This document shows positions 34,832 to 50,142 of a DNA stretch of 64,000 nt, one piece after another; within the stretch, counting starts at the first letter, position 1; every line of letters begins with the position of its first letter. The DNA is taken from NCBI RefSeq assembly GCF_003731635.1, contig NZ_RCUA01000020.1:1-64000 (forward strand). Direction: 5' to 3'. Origin of the DNA: Marisediminitalea oceani. GTDB lineage: Bacteria; Pseudomonadota; Gammaproteobacteria; Enterobacterales; Alteromonadaceae. Position numbers and translations under genes: made by a program. The notes beneath the pieces are model-generated. The model was not told where the DNA came from. It was given only the letters and a program-made list of their open reading frames with translations, and ran no database searches.

Positions 34832-35027
34832 GTTTAATTCCTCAATTGGGGTTAGGCCTCCATACACCCTTTGTATCGATCCACTATTGCAATAAAGCAA
34901 CGCAGACACCCCGATACGCAGTCACAGTGTATGTGTGTTTTAATATAAGTAATGTACTTCTTTGAAGTAACTGAAGTGATTTGCGGTGAACCAAAATCCA
35001 CAGAAATGTTCGGGTTAATTCAAAAAG

Positions 35028-43203: not shown

Positions 43204-43944
43204 TTATTGACTCCAGGTTAAAAACGGCTGCCAGCTTACCAATAACTGCTCAATTTCGCTATCGACTTGCGTCAGAATAGTCAGCCATTTACCGCTAACC
43301 GGGTGGTAAAAGCCCATCGACACGCACACCAGCATCAGCCGGTGGCAACCAAACTGGTCGCGCAGAAAACCATTGTGTTTGCCATCGCCATGGGTGGTAT
43401 CGCCCACAATAGGATGGCGTAAATGCAACATGTGCCGCCTTAACTGATGCTTACGCCCGGTGTGAGGTGTTAAGCCCAGCCAGGAATAGCGCGCCGTGGC
43501 ATAGCGGCCGACCGCAAACGGCAATTCATAATGGGCCAGTGGCCAGTAATCTGAATGAGCGGTTTGCGGTGCTACCTGTTTAGTGCGATAGGCATCGGCA
43601 TACTTATCCCAGCGATATTTGAGCGCATAGTCGATCATCCCGGCCGAGTTAACATAACCCCTGACCAGAGCCCGATAAGACTTCTGCATGCCATTACTCA
43701 TCATTTGTGCATTCATTGCCGAAGCCGTTCCGCTATCCAGTGCAAATAACAGTAAGCCAGCGGTTGGCCGGTCCAGTCGGTGTAGCGGATACACATGCCG
43801 ACCAAGCTGGTCGCGCAGCAACTGCACGGCGAAGCGAGTTTCGTGTTTATCAATCGGGCTACGATGCACGAGCAATCCGGCCGGTTTGTAAATGGCTACA
43901 ATGTGCTCATCCTGATACACCACATTTAATTCATTGTTACCCAT
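43204..43944 (-). CDS. truC: tRNA pseudouridine(65) synthase
   Basis: A 246-residue RluA-family pseudouridine synthase. The catalytic Asp is in HRLDRPTAGLL, and the supporting motifs LTPHTGRKHQLRRHM and HPIVGDTTHGDG match TruC, which modifies U65 in tRNA-Ile and tRNA-Asp. It overlaps yqcC by 8 bp and precedes yqcA by 15 bp. Confidence 0.94.
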   Translation of the reverse strand: MGNNELNVVYQDEHIVAIYKPAGLLVHRSPIDKHETRFAVQLLRDQLGRHVYPLHRLDRPTAGLLLFALDSGTASAMNAQMMSNGMQKSYRALVRGYVNSAGMIDYALKYRWDKYADAYRTKQVAPQTAHSDYWPLAHYELPFAVGRYATARYSWLGLTPHTGRKHQLRRHMLHLRHPIVGDTTHGDGKHNGFLRDQFGCHRLMLVCVSMGFYHPVSGKWLTILTQVDSEIEQLLVSWQPFLTWSQ

Positions 43945-44266
43945 GGTGAGACTGACTCCAGCTGTCGAAACGCGCCAGAACCCGTTGTACAGGAAGATGT
44001 TTACCTTGCCAGGTAACTTCAGCCATAGGCTGAATTTGCATGGTTGGGGGTAAGGTATTCGTTTTCAGCAAAGCCTGTAAACGCGGAATAAAGATAAACT
44101 GTAGCCACTGCTCAAAAGCAAGCGTGTCACAGGCGAAGGGTTGCTGGCTGACCAGCGCTTCCTGTGGAGGCGTGACCGCCGACCACAAACCCGCAGCTTT
44201 TAATATTTCTTCCAGCTCAAACAACAAATCTGAGCCCTGCTCAATGGATTTGGGATCATGAATCAT
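43937..44266 (-). CDS. yqcC: YqcC family protein (DUF446)
   Basis: A 109-residue, mostly helical cytoplasmic protein of DUF446. The stretch FEQWLQFIFIPRLQALL is its conserved core. Function is unknown; it is found with truC and yqcA in enterics, vibrios and relatives. Its start overlaps divergently with the upstream leader of the DUF3549 gene, so the promoters face away from each other within about 60 bp. Confidence 0.9.
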   Translation of the reverse strand: MIHDPKSIEQGSDLLFELEEILKAAGLWSAVTPPQEALVSQQPFACDTLAFEQWLQFIFIPRLQALLKTNTLPPTMQIQPMAEVTWQGKHLPVQRVLARFDSWSQSHHG

Positions 44267-44326
44267 TACGCGCTTACTCCAATGCCTGTTACACTATCGG
44301 CAAATTTTGTCATAGTAAAAATCAGC

Positions 44327-45373
44327 ATGAATTCAAAAAGTATTCACTCGCTGAGCGAGTTCTTATTACATGCGGGCACGGATTATCGCATTTTTGATTT
44401 AGGTCGTGGAGTTTATCCTGTTGCCTCGCAAACATTTTTAGATATCGAGAACGGTAAAGTTTGCCCTCCCCGCCCTCGTCAGCAACACGCCTGGTATGCC
44501 GTGGTGTTCTGGCAAACCAATCCCCAGGCCCAGCGTTATATCTGGTTTGTTAAGTTTCCGCTGGATGAGCAGGGTTTATTGATTCAGGCGTCGCGCAACC
44601 ACTTTTTACAAATCATCGTTGATGCGCTGGGAAACCAGATTGCCGGTGAGCAAGGCAGTGATGAATTACCGGATAACCCTTATACCTTTGTACCCAGTCA
44701 GCAGCTTATGGCGCAGTTTTCGGCCATTGCCCGTCAGGCGCTAAACGATAAGAAAAGCGAGTCACTGGAACAAGCCCGGCAATATTTGCAGGCTCCAGCC
44801 ATTATCGACTGGCAGCAATTACCGGTTCAGGCTATTGCCGATCTCGCAGTAGCAATTGATAATAAACAGGCTGCCCACATTATCGAAAACTTCAGACACT
44901 TCAGCGACCCGTTTTTAGAAACATTGTTCAGCAGTCTGGAAAGCGTATCGCTGCCTGACAACCTGCAAACCTTTTTTATTGAGCAGCTTACTGTGGCTGC
45001 CGAAGATGAGGCGCAAAAGCACGTCATGCTGGGCCTGCTCAGAGCGTTAAGCACGCCAGAGTATCACCCGCAAATTAACCAGGCATTGAATGATCTGTTA
45101 GACAAAACATCCCAGCCTGATATGCATTTGCTGAGCGTAATAGCCGGCCGACATGATGCGCAGTTAGATACCTTAACGGCGCAGCGGTTTCTGGAAGCAG
45201 CGGCTAAAGCGGATGCCGAAGGCGCCTATAAACATGAGTTGTTTATTGGCTTGTTTAGCGATTTGGTGCAAATACCTACGCTGCGCAGAACCATGCTAAC
45301 CCTGGCCCGGGCACATCAGAATAATCCACTAATGCAGGCGCCGCTAAATACCCTTTTCAACAAGGCAGGATAA
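44327..45373 (+). CDS. DUF3549 family protein
   Basis: A 348-residue protein from the ATG at 44327 (MNSKSIHSLSEFLLHAG), which is preferred over an upstream in-frame ATG at 44258 that lies inside yqcC. The N-terminal half includes YDVFW-like AWYAVVFWQTNPQ and WFVKFPLDEQG strands; the C-terminal half is helical and repeat-like. DUF3549 is a family of unknown function in marine gammaproteobacteria, usually next to the DUF3301 gene, as here. No signal peptide is seen. Confidence 0.8.
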   Translation: MNSKSIHSLSEFLLHAGTDYRIFDLGRGVYPVASQTFLDIENGKVCPPRPRQQHAWYAVVFWQTNPQAQRYIWFVKFPLDEQGLLIQASRNHFLQIIVDALGNQIAGEQGSDELPDNPYTFVPSQQLMAQFSAIARQALNDKKSESLEQARQYLQAPAIIDWQQLPVQAIADLAVAIDNKQAAHIIENFRHFSDPFLETLFSSLESVSLPDNLQTFFIEQLTVAAEDEAQKHVMLGLLRALSTPEYHPQINQALNDLLDKTSQPDMHLLSVIAGRHDAQLDTLTAQRFLEAAAKADAEGAYKHELFIGLFSDLVQIPTLRRTMLTLARAHQNNPLMQAPLNTLFNKAG

Positions 45374-45379
45374 GACCCG

Positions 45380-45691
45380 GTGAATTTATTTGATGTATTG
45401 CTATTGGTATTACTGTGCGCCGGCGCAGCGTTTTTCTGGCGGATCCGAACCATTTCTGAGTGCGCAAACCAGTACCTGCAACGGTACTGCGAACAGCAGC
45501 GTTTGCAGTTAGTCAGTGTAGCCAGAAAAACTACTCGTCCGATGTTATACCGGGGCAAGCTCGATTGGCGCAGCGAGTTTTTATTTGAGTTTTCATCCAC
45601 CGGCGATGACTGTTACCAGGGCACCTTGCTGCTCAATGGACTGACGGTGATCAAAACGGAAACGCCACCGCATCGCATCAACACGCACTGA
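45380..45691 (+). CDS. DUF3301 family protein
   Basis: A 103-residue protein with an N-terminal membrane helix (about 4-20) followed by a short domain (RPMLYRGKLDWRSEFLFEFSS) typical of DUF3301. Function is unknown. The start is GTG, 6 bp after the DUF3549 stop, so the two form an operon. The terminator of csrB copy 1 on the other strand also serves this gene. Confidence 0.8.
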   Translation: MNLFDVLLLVLLCAGAAFFWRIRTISECANQYLQRYCEQQRLQLVSVARKTTRPMLYRGKLDWRSEFLFEFSSTGDDCYQGTLLLNGLTVIKTETPPHRINTH

Positions 45692-45709
45692 ATACTGAAT
45701 ATTACCCAT

Positions 45710-46201
45710 AAAAAAACGGTGGCCTTAGCCACCGTTTTCTCTGGAATTTTGAGACTCCCTCTCAGCGTTAGTGCAATTTTAAGCATGGCTTATAATCCCG
45801 CACGCAATTCCTTCTTACTCTGCTTCACAGCAGGCCACCTGTCCTTAGGCGTATCCCTTTCCATTCTCCGTAAAAATCTTTACATCCTGTAAAGTATTCT
45901 CCGCTCCTGGAGTTGTCCCTAGCCGTCCTGGCTTATTCCATTCCTGCTGGCATCCCAGCCTCTTCCTTAAATCCTGATGGTTTATTCCTTTAAACCGGAT
46001 TCCGTTTGTCTTCCTGACATCGTCATCCTGACGAATTTCCTATTGCCGTTCCTGGCGTTATCTTCCTGATAGATGCCTTCCTGGCTAGTATCTTCCTGAT
46101 AAGTCACATCTCCTTGCGACATGTTTAGATTACGCCTCTGAGAAAAACCTGCCACCGGTGGATCACATAAAATCGGTGTAATCCTCACGACTCAATGTGT
46201 A
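45710..46201 (-). ncRNA. csrB1: CsrB-type CsrA-sequestering small RNA, copy 1
   Basis: Read on the minus strand this roughly 490-nt segment contains about 27 GGA motifs, many as CAGGA. One, CTTTACAGGATGTAAAG (near 45880-45896), places ACAGGATGT in the loop of a perfect hairpin, the CsrA SELEX optimum. The RNA ends in a strong terminator (45713-45738). A conserved AT-rich promoter block (-10 near 46208-46213) and a UvrY box (46289-46306) lie upstream. The flanking yqcA-truC-yqcC genes match the neighbourhood of csrB in E. coli. It should titrate CsrA, controlling carbon storage, motility and biofilm. Ends are estimates; the 5' end is set from the -10 position. A 68-residue open frame inside is discussed as a finding. 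Confidence 0.9.
45713..45738. terminator. Terminator of csrB1 (also serves DUF3301 gene)
   Basis: AAAACGGTGGC / GCCACCGTTTT with a 4-nt loop, followed by seven Ts on the minus strand and four on the plus strand. Confidence 0.92.
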
Positions 46202-46546
46202 GCAATTTTAATAATTTATATTTTTCATAAACTTAGCCAAAGGTCTAAGGCGTGGGCAGGCGAAACAAACCGTCTATTCGTACATTTGTGTAGGAAATGT
46301 CTTACAAAGATGCCGACCAGAAGCCATTCGGCCCCATAAAGTCGTGAGAATTTTGCTCTGGGATGAGACTCGAAGCATGATTAAATTCATAAAAATGTCA
46401 TAGCACATTCATTTTTACAGAGCATTCGGCTTTAGACCACATCGGCTCAGTTTACTCCGCAAAAATGATCATAACTGAGTGCTTTACTAATAAAGTTGCA
46501 ACTATATACTGCTGATATCAATATAGTTTTAAAATTAGAAACGTAA
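46202..46546. other. Shared upstream region of csrB1 and the sulfatase
   Basis: This 345-bp AT-rich stretch holds the csrB1 promoter block (conserved with copy 2), its UvrY box (46289-46306) and, further right, a possible sulfatase promoter (TTGCAA, 17 bp, CAATAT around 46496-46524). No gene is seen. Confidence 0.5.
46289..46306 (-). promoter_or_regulatory. UvrY/GacA response-regulator box of csrB1
   Basis: On the minus strand TGTAAG-N6-CCTACA matches the TGTAAG-N6-CTTACA consensus with one mismatch. It lies about 90 bp upstream of the predicted RNA start, at the same place as in copy 2. Confidence 0.75.
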
Positions 46547-48765
46547 ATGTCAAAATGGAAGTACGGCGTTATCTTTCTCGCCTTTATCGTTACTCATCTA
46601 GCTCACGCCGAGCCTAAAAATGTGATTGTGATCCTTGCCGATGATCTGGGGTGGAATGACACAACATTGTTTGGCAACGACCAGTTCTTAGAAACCCCTA
46701 ATCTGGAAAGGCTAGCCGAACAGGGGATGCTTTATACTCACTCCTATACAAACAACCCACTTTGCTCTCCAAACCGGGCATCAATTTTAACGGACAGACA
46801 CCCGCCAGACATGGCTCAATCCAGCCATTACATCATTTAGATAATGTAAGGTTGGTTGCAGATCTGCCAAATTCGGCTCCCAGCAATAGAATGTCAATTG
46901 CGCCGCATACGGTTACCCGTCTGGATACGTCCATTCCTACTCTCTCGTCTGTGCTAAAACAACATGGGTATCAGACTGCGCACTTCGGGAAATGGCATTT
47001 GGGAGCAAGTCCATACAGCCCGCTTGAGCATGGTTTTGACATTGATATTCCACATTTTGATGGTGCAGGCCCGGCAGGCGGCTTTTTAGCGCCATGGGAT
47101 TTTGCACCAAATCTACAACCTCAGACCCGCGGCGAGCATATCGACGAGCGTTTAGCCACAGAAGCTGGCAACTGGATGGCTGAAGCAAGCCAGGATGGTC
47201 CTTTTTTCCTGAATTTCTGGGCCTTCTCCGTTCATTCACCTTTTAACGCCGATCCCGATCTGGTAGCGCATTTTGTCGAAAAACGCTCACCCTACAATAT
47301 TCAACGCAGTGTCGTTTACGCTGCTATGGTCAAGCATTTTGATAACGCGATAGGAACATTGCTGGATAAGCTGGAAGAATTAAATTTAACTGAAGACACC
47401 ATCATTATTTTCAGCTCTGATAATGGCGGGAATATGTACAGTGTGCTCGGCAATATTCGCGCCACCAATAATTTTCCATTACGCGGTGGCAAAGCAACTG
47501 ACTTTGATGGCGGAATTCGTGTTCCGACCATTATCAGCTGGCCAGGAAAAACGACACCTAATTCAATATCGTCAACGCCTATTCAATCGGTAGACTTCAT
47601 GCCTACATTGCTTGAGGGGCTGGGTATCCCGCTCCCTTCACAGTCAATCATAGACGGTCAGGATATTAGTAATACCTTTACAGGTAACTCGCCTGATCCG
47701 CGCCCATTAATTAACTTTTTCCCGGTTAATGCAGTGGTACCTGACTGGCTGCCACCGTCGGTCAATGTCCAATATGACGGTTGGAAGCTAATCCGAAGTT
47801 TCGAATATGGCCAATCCGAAAGGCACTTATATTATTTATATGATCTGGAAAATGATGTTGGGGAAACCACCAACCTGGCGGCTGAATATCCCTCTAAAGT
47901 TCATGAGTTAGATCTGTTAATACAACAACATTTAGATGAAGCCAATGCAGTAGTTCCAATAGCAAACCCTAATTACCGGGCTGGTGCCTTTGATTATTCC
48001 TCTATCGGCAATCCCGCAGAACATTGGCGTCTACCTGTTGTTGATGCGAACAACGCCCCGCCTCAAATTACAGCCTATGCATCTGAGCAACGAATTTCAG
48101 AAGGTCAGCAAACCTCAATCCGCTTTTATGTAGAGGATGATAGCAACAATGCTTCAGTTAATTACAGGCAGGTAACCGGACCGGAAGTTGAGCTTCAACA
48201 AACAGAACCCGGCACTCTTCTCATTACCGGTCCAACAGTCTATACCGAGACAATTATCACATTAGGCTTTGTTGCTAATGACTCAGTAAATACTTCAGTG
48301 AAGCATGTGGCTGTTTTTATCGAACCTGTCGAATCAGCGCCAACAGTTGATGTGACTTCAGACACGTCTTCGGTCGAAAAAGGGAAGTCAATTGGGTTAA
48401 ACATTACAACAGCAGATAAAAACCGGGAGCCATTAACGTTAGCCGTCAGTTCGAGTACTTTACCTGAATCTGAATTAACGGCACCGCCGCTTCAAGGTTC
48501 TTATGACGTTATGATCCCGGAAGATTTTACGGGAGACTCTGTAACGTTAACGTTTACTGTTTCAGATGGCACGTCGCAACAATCAACTGATTTTACTTTT
48601 AGCGTAAGTGCACCTGCCGCGATTGTTGATAACACTACTAATAACTCATCGGGAGGCGGTACTGTAAGATTCTGGCAGTTAATCGTATTACTGATGATAG
48701 TTTGGGGTCGCCGAATAGGTATAAGCCAAAAGGCGGCTCCTGGCCGGCTCTTAAGCGAGAAATAA
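46547..48765 (+). pseudogene. Secreted sulfatase with a single-base frameshift
   Basis: Two overlapping frames (46547-46840 and 46762-48765) together make one sulfatase of about 738 residues. The first gives a signal peptide (1-21, AHAEP), the metal motif VILADDLGW and the formylglycine signature [11 protein letters not shown]. It then loses frame at about 46792-46794, where one base, probably a G, appears missing; the second frame continues with QTPARHG, as expected after the signature. Later parts are HFGKWHLG, SSDNGG, two Ig- or cadherin-like beta domains, and a GlyGly-CTERM tail (SSGGG, hydrophobic helix, WGRR) for rhombosortase processing. The substrate, perhaps an algal sulfated polysaccharide, is inference. 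Either a recent mutation or a sequencing error is possible, since the remainder is intact. Confidence 0.85.
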
Positions 48766-48799
48766 TGAAATTGTGAAGTTCGCAGAATAACTGATTTGC

Positions 48800-49295
48800 A
48801 AAAAAAAACGGTGGCCTGAGCCACCGTTTTCTTCTGGAATTTAGAACTCCTTCTCTGCGCTAGTGCAATTTCGGGGATTACCTGAAACTCCGCACGCAAA
48901 TCCTTCTTATCTGCTTTGCAGCAGCCCACCTTGTCCGTGGTGTTTCCCTTTCCATTTTTCCGTTCAAACTTTACATCCTGTAAAGTAATCTCCGCTCTTG
49001 GAGTTGTCCTTAGCCGTCCTGGCTTATTCCATTCCTGCTGGCATCCCAGCCTCTTCCTTAAATCCTGTTGGTTTATTCCGTTAAACCGGATTCCATTGGT
49101 CTTCCTGACATCGTCATCCTGACGCGTATTCCTTTTGCCGCTTCCTGCGCGCTATCTTCCTGATAGGTGCCTTCCTGGCTGTTGTCTTTCTGACGGGTCG
49201 CATCTCCTTGCGACATGGTTAGATTACGCTGCTGAGAAAAACCTGCCACCGGTGGATTACACAAAACCGCCTGATTCTCATTCATCTCGTCTGTA
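48800..49295 (-). ncRNA. csrB2: CsrB-type CsrA-sequestering small RNA, copy 2
   Basis: A second RNA, diverged from but clearly paralogous to copy 1 over its full length, in the same orientation. It has about 25 GGA motifs and keeps the identical CTTTACAGGATGTAAAG hairpin (near 48971-48987), the ACGGTGGC terminator, the AT-rich promoter block (-10 near 49302-49307) and a perfect UvrY box (49383-49400). Blocks such as GCTGGGATGCCAGCAGGAA are identical in both copies. It is convergent with the sulfatase. Multiple csrB genes under one two-component system are known from vibrios, where they act redundantly. Ends are estimates. Confidence 0.9.
48805..48830 (-). terminator. Terminator of csrB2
   Basis: AAAACGGTGGC / GCCACCGTTTT with a CTGA loop and a nine-base T-run on the minus strand. 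Same sequence as the csrB1 terminator except for the loop. Confidence 0.92.
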
Positions 49296-49382
49296 ACAGA
49301 TTTAATACTCTATATTTTTCATAACCTTAACCAAAAGTGTAAGGCAAGGCTGGGTAAAACAAACCGCTTATTCGTACACTTT

Positions 49383-49400
49383 TGTAAGAAATGTCTTACA
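49383..49400 (-). promoter_or_regulatory. UvrY/GacA response-regulator box of csrB2
   Basis: TGTAAGACATTTCTTACA on the minus strand is a perfect TGTAAG-N6-CTTACA box, about 90 bp upstream of the predicted RNA start and only about 40 bp from the stop of the next gene. Confidence 0.85.
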
Positions 49401-49440: not shown

Positions 49441-50142
49441 TTATGGCTTATCCGCGGGCATAACAAATACTTCTCTGACACAGGCTGTTTTGCTGCTCGA
49501 CAACGCATAAAGCACAGCATCAGCAATGTCTTCTGGCGCAATTTTGTCGTCTTTCGGTTCATCAAAAAATGATGTATTGACCATGCCCGGGCAGATGGTG
49601 GTGCACTTGCCGCCCCACTCACGCATTTCCTCCGCCAGGTTCATCCCAAACCCGTAGGCAAACCATTTGGTAGCACCATATACCGAGCCTTTAAGTGTCA
49701 TGCGACCGGCTGCGGAACTGGTTAACAGAAAGTGCCCTTCACTATCTTTCAGATAAGGCAGACTGGCTTTAGCCGTATAGAGCAAGCCGTTAACGTTAGC
49801 CCCCAACATGGTAGACCACTCGTTTACGTCACCCTCTGCCACGCCCGGAGAGTTTACGCCGGTACCGGCATTAGCAAAGACACCGTCGATGCTGCCAAAT
49901 TTGCTATGGATGTCTGCAAATGCACTGCTTAACGTGTCAAAGTCGCTGACATCCGCTTTTACTGCATAGGCTTTGTCTTCGCCCAGTTCACTAACCAGCT
50001 CGTTAAGCTTATCCTGACGTCTGGCCAGCAAGGCAACGTGATAGCCGTTTGCCACCAACGCCCGTGCCGTTGCCTCACCGATGCCGCTTGATGCGCCGGT
50101 AATGGCGATAACTTTTGCTTTGGATTCTTGAGTTACTGACAT
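49441..50142 (-). CDS. Short-chain dehydrogenase/reductase
   Basis: A 233-residue classical SDR. The NAD(P) motif TGASSGIG is at 15-22, NAG is within FANAGTG, and the catalytic Ser and Tyr-x-x-x-Lys appear as TSSAAG and YGATK. Arg residues after the second strand (ALLARRQDK) favour NADPH. The substrate is unknown. AGGAG precedes the ATG by 5 nt. It lies 25 bp downstream of the PfpI-like gene on the same strand, so the two are probably cotranscribed. Confidence 0.88.
   Translation of the reverse strand: MSVTQESKAKVIAITGASSGIGEATARALVANGYHVALLARRQDKLNELVSELGEDKAYAVKADVSDFDTLSSAFADIHSKFGSIDGVFANAGTGVNSPGVAEGDVNEWSTMLGANVNGLLYTAKASLPYLKDSEGHFLLTSSAAGRMTLKGSVYGATKWFAYGFGMNLAEEMREWGGKCTTICPGMVNTSFFDEPKDDKIAPEDIADAVLYALSSSKTACVREVFVMPADKP

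Follow-up and report, generated by a model that had tools for sequence, protein, structure and literature searches.

Tandem CsrB-type RNA genes enclosing a sulfatase gene in an Alteromonas lineage, with a probable recombinant in a relative

The 64,000-nt stretch of Marisediminitalea oceani contig NZ_RCUA01000020.1 analysed here (hereafter the window, meaning the stretch at its full length; part of contig C13 of a 5.0-Mb genome) carries on its minus strand two homologous segments, designated copies A and B, that enclose a sulfatase gene lying on the opposite strand. Their features point to two functional-looking CsrB-type sponge RNA genes that very probably arose by local duplication of csrB in an Alteromonas lineage, would be driven by UvrY/GacA and recombine with one another. 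Judged from sequence, these genes most likely work in the textbook manner, as UvrY/GacA-driven RNAs that would sequester CsrA. Coordinates are collected in Table 1; G and L numbers denote genomes of relatives and loci, respectively, and G004 is Alteromonas alba.

The homology between the two copies opens with the first base of a GacA-type box, 185 nt ahead of where the RNA presumably starts, and extends to the terminator (minus strand, about 45710-46306 for B and 48800-49400 for A). In a blastn comparison of the minus strands, A (48799-49400) and B (45706-46330) are 84% identical over B positions 25-624, and identity is 74% in a wider multiple alignment that includes the flanks and counts gap-free columns. 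The presumed RNAs are strongly enriched in GGA, with 25 motifs in A against a mean of 14.0 and a maximum of 22 in 500 dinucleotide shuffles, and 27 in B against a mean of 15.7 and a maximum of 23 in as many. Similarly, minus-strand GGA density across the window has two peaks (28 and 25 per 450 nt; window mean 5.1, standard deviation 3.2; next best 15). Several CAGGA loops are visible in the Rfam alignment of the copies, both of which carry the same CTTTACAGGATGTAAAG hairpin with a CsrA-type loop, and the terminator stem ACGGTGGC/GCCACCGT is identical in A and B. An earlier reading of the window (hereafter the sequence-only reading) had described two homologous same-strand segments with about 25-27 GGA each, a shared hairpin and a shared terminator stem, all of which is borne out. 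Its two RNAs of about 490 nt were probably drawn too long: with 5' ends placed by the conserved TGTCGCAAGGA rather than mapped (presumed starts 49215 for A and 46121 for B), each is probably about 415 nt.

The CsrB-type identity of A and B, as proposed by the sequence-only reading, is supported by Rfam E-values, covariation, the GacA-type box, the terminator and the presence of csrA and uvrY/gacA-type genes. Against the whole Rfam CsrB model (RF00018), copy B scores 46.5 bits (E 1.1e-10) and copy A 42.5 bits (E 1.8e-9); at E 0.001, with stricter filters, this model matches 21 of the 59 genus genomes. A further covariance model, R1, was built from 24 copies of the genus and near kin, A and B included, taking the 3'-terminal ~165 nt of each. 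Its consensus for this 3' portion contains 35 pairs, 22 of which show at least one compensatory change. Strong R1 matches (at least 77.9 bits; next weaker 35.9) are found in all 59 genus genomes, the window's own included. The comparison of copy number that had been suggested for related genomes yields one strong copy in 47, two in seven and three in five; the tally of two for G035 probably reflects an assembly break at copy B. Across the family, 97 of the 147 genomes sampled have some R1 match at E <=0.01, many of them weak and some confined to the terminator. We further note that the CsrB-type region of G047 (L062 6520-7219) contains 43 GGA in two adjoining 350-nt stretches, far above the copies described here.

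R1 scores copy B at 150.6 bits and copy A at 113.5 bits; both belong to its training set, and since R1 was partly trained on the copies that it scores, such scores are not independent. The lower score of A would fit an alternative in which only one copy works as a sponge while the other, most likely A with its drifted 3' half, is a decaying duplicate. Most of the derived changes in the 3' half are likewise on A (23 of the 34 sites that distinguish A from B there), and a single strong copy is the state in the 47 genomes mentioned above. Yet A retains a perfect GacA-type box, its 25 GGA and its terminator, and its occurrence in five genomes (the window, G034, G048, G004 and G035) at 90-100% identity among them suggests constraint. 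We consider a decaying copy unlikely and favour two functional-looking genes.

The genome encodes one csrA (PF02599, 88.8 bits) and one uvrY/gacA-type gene over the family cut-off (NF007018, UvrY/SirA/GacA, 319.5 bits). Each copy is preceded by a box resembling the GacA/UvrY consensus, which we take to be TGTAAGN6CTTACA. Because about 2.5 chance matches with up to two mismatches are expected per window, the case for these boxes rests on their position and conservation. A palindrome, CCACCGGTGG, is also present directly upstream of the presumed promoters (49246-49255 and 46152-46161) and is exact in six of nine aligned clade copies; it is a possible regulator site.

Two RNA genes were correctly counted in the window by the sequence-only reading, which missed a third CsrB-like copy (C) 763 nt beyond the window's end, upstream of fdhD and with a GacA-type box that is similar by eye. 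Copy C falls in a clade of its own that spans several lineages (support 0.998) and is thus an older paralogue, A and B being later. A and B form a group to the exclusion of C, in agreement with the local duplication proposed earlier. This origin is further supported by the flanks. The 90 nt upstream of the B box resemble the corresponding flank of the distal copy of A. lipolytica (three B flanks score 17, 23 and 20, each value reached by 0/1000 mononucleotide shuffles), whereas the A flank of the window shows no such likeness (349/1000 shuffles reach its score). The likeness of the window's B flank to the proximal copy of A. lipolytica is faint (score 11, 14/1000 shuffles), and the B flank of G048 gives 718/1000 in that comparison. 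Since the B flank is shared with A. lipolytica and the A flank is not, copy B probably occupies the ancestral site, and copy A would be the newcomer that arose by duplication. A. lipolytica has a tandem pair of its own, about 660 nt apart and without a sulfatase between. A single old event behind both pairs was considered but is disfavoured by the clustering of the two A. lipolytica copies with each other (support 1.0), a pattern that gene conversion could mimic.

Relatives of the enclosed sulfatase (at least 92% identity) lie beside copy A in the same five genomes, and copy B is assembled on the gene's other side in four of them (the window, G048, G034 and G004). The nearest relative in A. 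lipolytica lies elsewhere in the genome and is 51% identical. The earlier suggestion that the sulfatase came to lie between the copies fits the A. lipolytica pair without one; it may also, as the second half of that suggestion had it, have been duplicated around. In the window, the CSPNR match to the Cys-type sulfatase signature, which we take to be CxPxR, is in a different frame from the rest of the sulfatase, whereas the two are in frame in the clade relatives L071, L072 and L073. The G048 sulfatase is a 739-aa open frame. The window's gene may thus be a pseudogene or contain a sequencing error.

Because A and B are direct repeats about 3.1 kb apart, recombination between them would leave a chimeric RNA gene and drop the sulfatase. 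Such a deletion, foreseen by the sequence-only reading, is matched by G057, which has one copy at the csrB locus, provided that its assembly is right. At the 78 sites where every A copy differs from every B copy, the 5' half of the G057 copy is A-like at 39 of 44 (three B-like, two neither) and the 3' half is B-like at 34 of 34 (Fisher p 2e-18). Sites polarised with outgroups follow the same division (A-derived at 15/16 in the 5' half, B-derived at 6/6 in the 3' half), and the upstream flank is A-type in G057 as in G056 (0/1000 shuffles). A match to the sulfatase was not found at E 1e-60 in the genomes of G057, rated 95% complete, or G056. These patterns make the G057 copy a probable product of A/B recombination with sulfatase loss.

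The G056 copy, assembled on a single contig between an A-type flank and DUF3301, resembles that of G057 with more noise: it has 25 A-like, 11 B-like and eight other sites in the 5' half, and six A-like, 27 B-like and one other in the 3' half. The single copies of G057 and G056 might instead represent the ancestral state that preceded duplication. As regards copy C, G056 falls outside the rest of the clade, and its csrB copy is basal in the 3'-half tree, outside the B group. However, an ancestral state is at odds with the derived states that G057 shares with A and B in turn and with the A-type flank of both genomes; the case from polarised sites is weaker for G056 (10/16 and 5/6). Moreover, the search for the flank that B has in common with A. 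lipolytica was negative in G056 (951/1000 shuffles reach the score against B and 367/1000 that against A. lipolytica) or in G057, where the comparison was with A. lipolytica (617/1000). We consider an ancestral origin of these single copies improbable and retain recombination for G057.

Several observations weigh against the account given here. Copies A and B both fall under the RF00018 gathering score of 71, so that the Rfam scan suggested earlier returned low E-values with scores beneath the cut-off, and none of the 59 genus genomes has a match over it under the stricter filters. The uvrY/gacA match has one TAG counted in it, which is taken as the terminal stop of a 213-aa open frame. With two mismatches allowed, the window contains six GacA-box matches where 2.5 are expected, and five of 100 shuffles reach that count of six. 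The B-type flank is not common to the G011 or G042 copies. In trees from half alignments, G057 sides with A for the 5' half and joins B for the 3' half, with moderate support (0.89 and 0.74, several other nodes being weak), and the 5'-half tree also places A. lipolytica on the A side, so the polarity is not clean. The G057 chimera could also be a mis-join, in a genome of 300 contigs that has the copy on one contig and DUF3301 on another. The low Rfam scores would likewise fit a GGA-rich sequence unrelated to CsrB, or a translated open reading frame (ORF) mistaken for an RNA. Yet covariation, the GacA-type box, the terminator, the conservation of the locus and the strong R1 matches throughout the genus argue against this. 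The sole ORF of at least 100 aa that overlaps either copy (48501-48929, minus) passes through the terminator of A and out beyond it. Such a misidentification is exceedingly improbable, and the CsrB-type assignment is preferred. None of the genus genomes sampled is caught at the Rfam cut-off, a gap that a better model repairs.

Under the proposed mechanism, UvrY/GacA would bind the box 185 nt upstream and turn on A and B, and also the third RNA near fdhD. Each RNA would then bind several CsrA dimers through its GGA loops, freeing mRNAs that CsrA represses, and additional copies would provide more sponge or a separately tuned supply. Recombination between A and B would fuse them into one chimeric RNA gene and remove the sulfatase, and the G057 copy appears to be such a product.

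Group II introns are found behind the terminators of some of these genes. In A. alba (G004), the contigs of both B and C run on past the terminator for about 200 nt and break off within a group II intron segment (61.3 bits to Rfam RF02001 in either case, bases 1-71; L055 and L056), and these are the two of seven loci in which a gathering-level scan found group II introns. The sequence behind A. alba copy B resembles the 5' part of an RF02001-type intron from the T-run onward, and the A. alba DUF3301 contig has a domain-V-like stretch at its end (score 35.4 bits, cut-off 40; E 9.5e-6). Contig ends at L040, L041 and G057 are intron-like by sequence likeness only; Rfam did not confirm introns at any of the three, and the G057 end, labelled so solely because it resembles that of A. 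alba, has no match even at E 0.1. Intron-like segments behind csrB/csrC terminators, where assemblies also break, were noted at the ends of L039 (weak), L040, L041 and L058. Group IIC introns are known to insert behind terminators. We tentatively suggest that the csrB locus of this clade may be a recombination-prone dosage locus, in which tandem arms would change sponge number and the cargo sulfatase together, with csrB/csrC terminators also serving as group II intron landing sites.

The surroundings of the locus are conserved. The neighbourhood was inspected in five single-copy genomes (L062-L066), and in these the RNA adjoins DUF3301-DUF3549-(yqcC)-truC-flavodoxin; a yqcC match was not found in L065. 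Compared over 11 loci in named genomes and bins, the neighbouring DUF3549 protein stands at 94% to A. alba and 94-96% to bins, followed by A. lipolytica at 84%. Apparent insertions of about 310-340 bp in the relative L037 were considered as mobile elements and rejected, both being runs of N. Elsewhere in the window, a gathering-level Rfam scan gives a t44 RNA as its sole match (34851-34955, minus, 54.7 bits), an ordinary Rfam match.

Table 1. Positions of the RNA copies, their signals and neighbouring genes (window numbering unless stated)
Feature	Position	Strand	Remarks
CsrB-type RNA copy B	45710..46121	-	412 nt, 27 GGA; start placed by conserved TGTCGCAAGGA
CsrB-type RNA copy A	48800..49215	-	416 nt, 25 GGA; start placed by conserved TGTCGCAAGGA
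CTTTACAGGATGTAAAG hairpin with CsrA-type loop, copy B	45878..45894	-	from sequence; same in both copies
CTTTACAGGATGTAAAG hairpin with CsrA-type loop, copy A	48969..48985	-	from sequence; same in both copies
Intrinsic terminator, copy B	45710..45738	-	hairpin -15.9 kcal/mol and T-run; stem covaries in 24 copies; convergent with DUF3549-DUF3301
Intrinsic terminator, copy A	48800..48830	-	hairpin -15.9 kcal/mol and T-run; stem covaries in 24 copies; convergent with sulfatase
GacA/UvrY-type box, copy B	46289..46306	-	1 mismatch to consensus; starts 185 nt upstream of RNA start
GacA/UvrY-type box, copy A	49383..49400	-	0 mismatches; starts 185 nt upstream of RNA start
Sulfatase gene (Pfam Sulfatase and SGSH_C)	46547..48765	+	CSPNR signature at 46763; frame broken after signature in this assembly, intact in relatives
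DUF3301 gene	45380..45691	+	downstream flank of csrB locus, here and in relatives examined
DUF3549 gene	44258..45373	+	same downstream flank as DUF3301, here and in relatives examined
yqcC-like gene (DUF446)	43937..44266	-	followed by truC-like and flavodoxin genes
Short-chain dehydrogenase gene	49441..50142	-	upstream flank of copy A
CsrB-like RNA copy C	contig C13 64763 to about 65102 (L047 4764-5103)		340 nt, 23 GGA; Rfam 49.7 bits, E 3.5e-12

The locus resembles E. coli CsrB/CsrC (RF00018) in its GGA-loop sponge architecture, its terminator, the CsrA and UvrY partners in the genome and the yqcC/truC neighbourhood, which is also that of E. coli csrB. It differs in having two close tandem copies and a third, and in a sequence too diverged for the Rfam cut-off. 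Pseudoalteromonas is a genus related to Alteromonas. P. fuliginea, of that marine genus, likewise has three CsrB-family RNAs (Pf1-3), of which Pf2 and Pf3 are reported to bind CsrA and, unlike A and B, lie in separate intergenic regions (PMC11882849). Three CsrB/C analogues (Aln1a-c) are also described in Alteromonas macleodii Te101, within the same genus, where they are reported as the most highly expressed genes of the data set; their three start sites lie within one 404-bp intergenic region, and we liken them to the present copies by description, not by locus (PMC5864184). Adjacent or tandem duplicates of such RNAs are already known. Pseudomonas brassicacearum has a tandem duplicate of a GacA-dependent sponge RNA, rsmX-1/rsmX-2, which are 75% identical, but these are ~110-nt RNAs ~100 nt apart by the coordinates of Table 1 in that source, so that no gene lies between them (PMC7911923). 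The csrB1-4 genes of Vibrionaceae were similarly gained by duplication, and csrB3 adjoins csrB2 in A. salmonicida, whereas the portions of that source considered mention no intervening sulfatase or chimeric copy (PMC6262261). A tandem CsrB pair enclosing a sulfatase was not found among the matches listed, in titles and abstract openings of the open-access literature. The points of interest here are thus the unusual insert, a sulfatase, and a probable natural recombinant.

If the csrB locus does behave as a dosage locus, simple deletion would make close relatives differ in how many copies of a global post-transcriptional switch they carry. The genomes compared offer a natural series that includes a single copy, a tandem pair, a pair enclosing a gene, an additional older copy and a probable chimera, which makes the gain, loss and tuning of CsrB dosage testable in marine copiotrophs.

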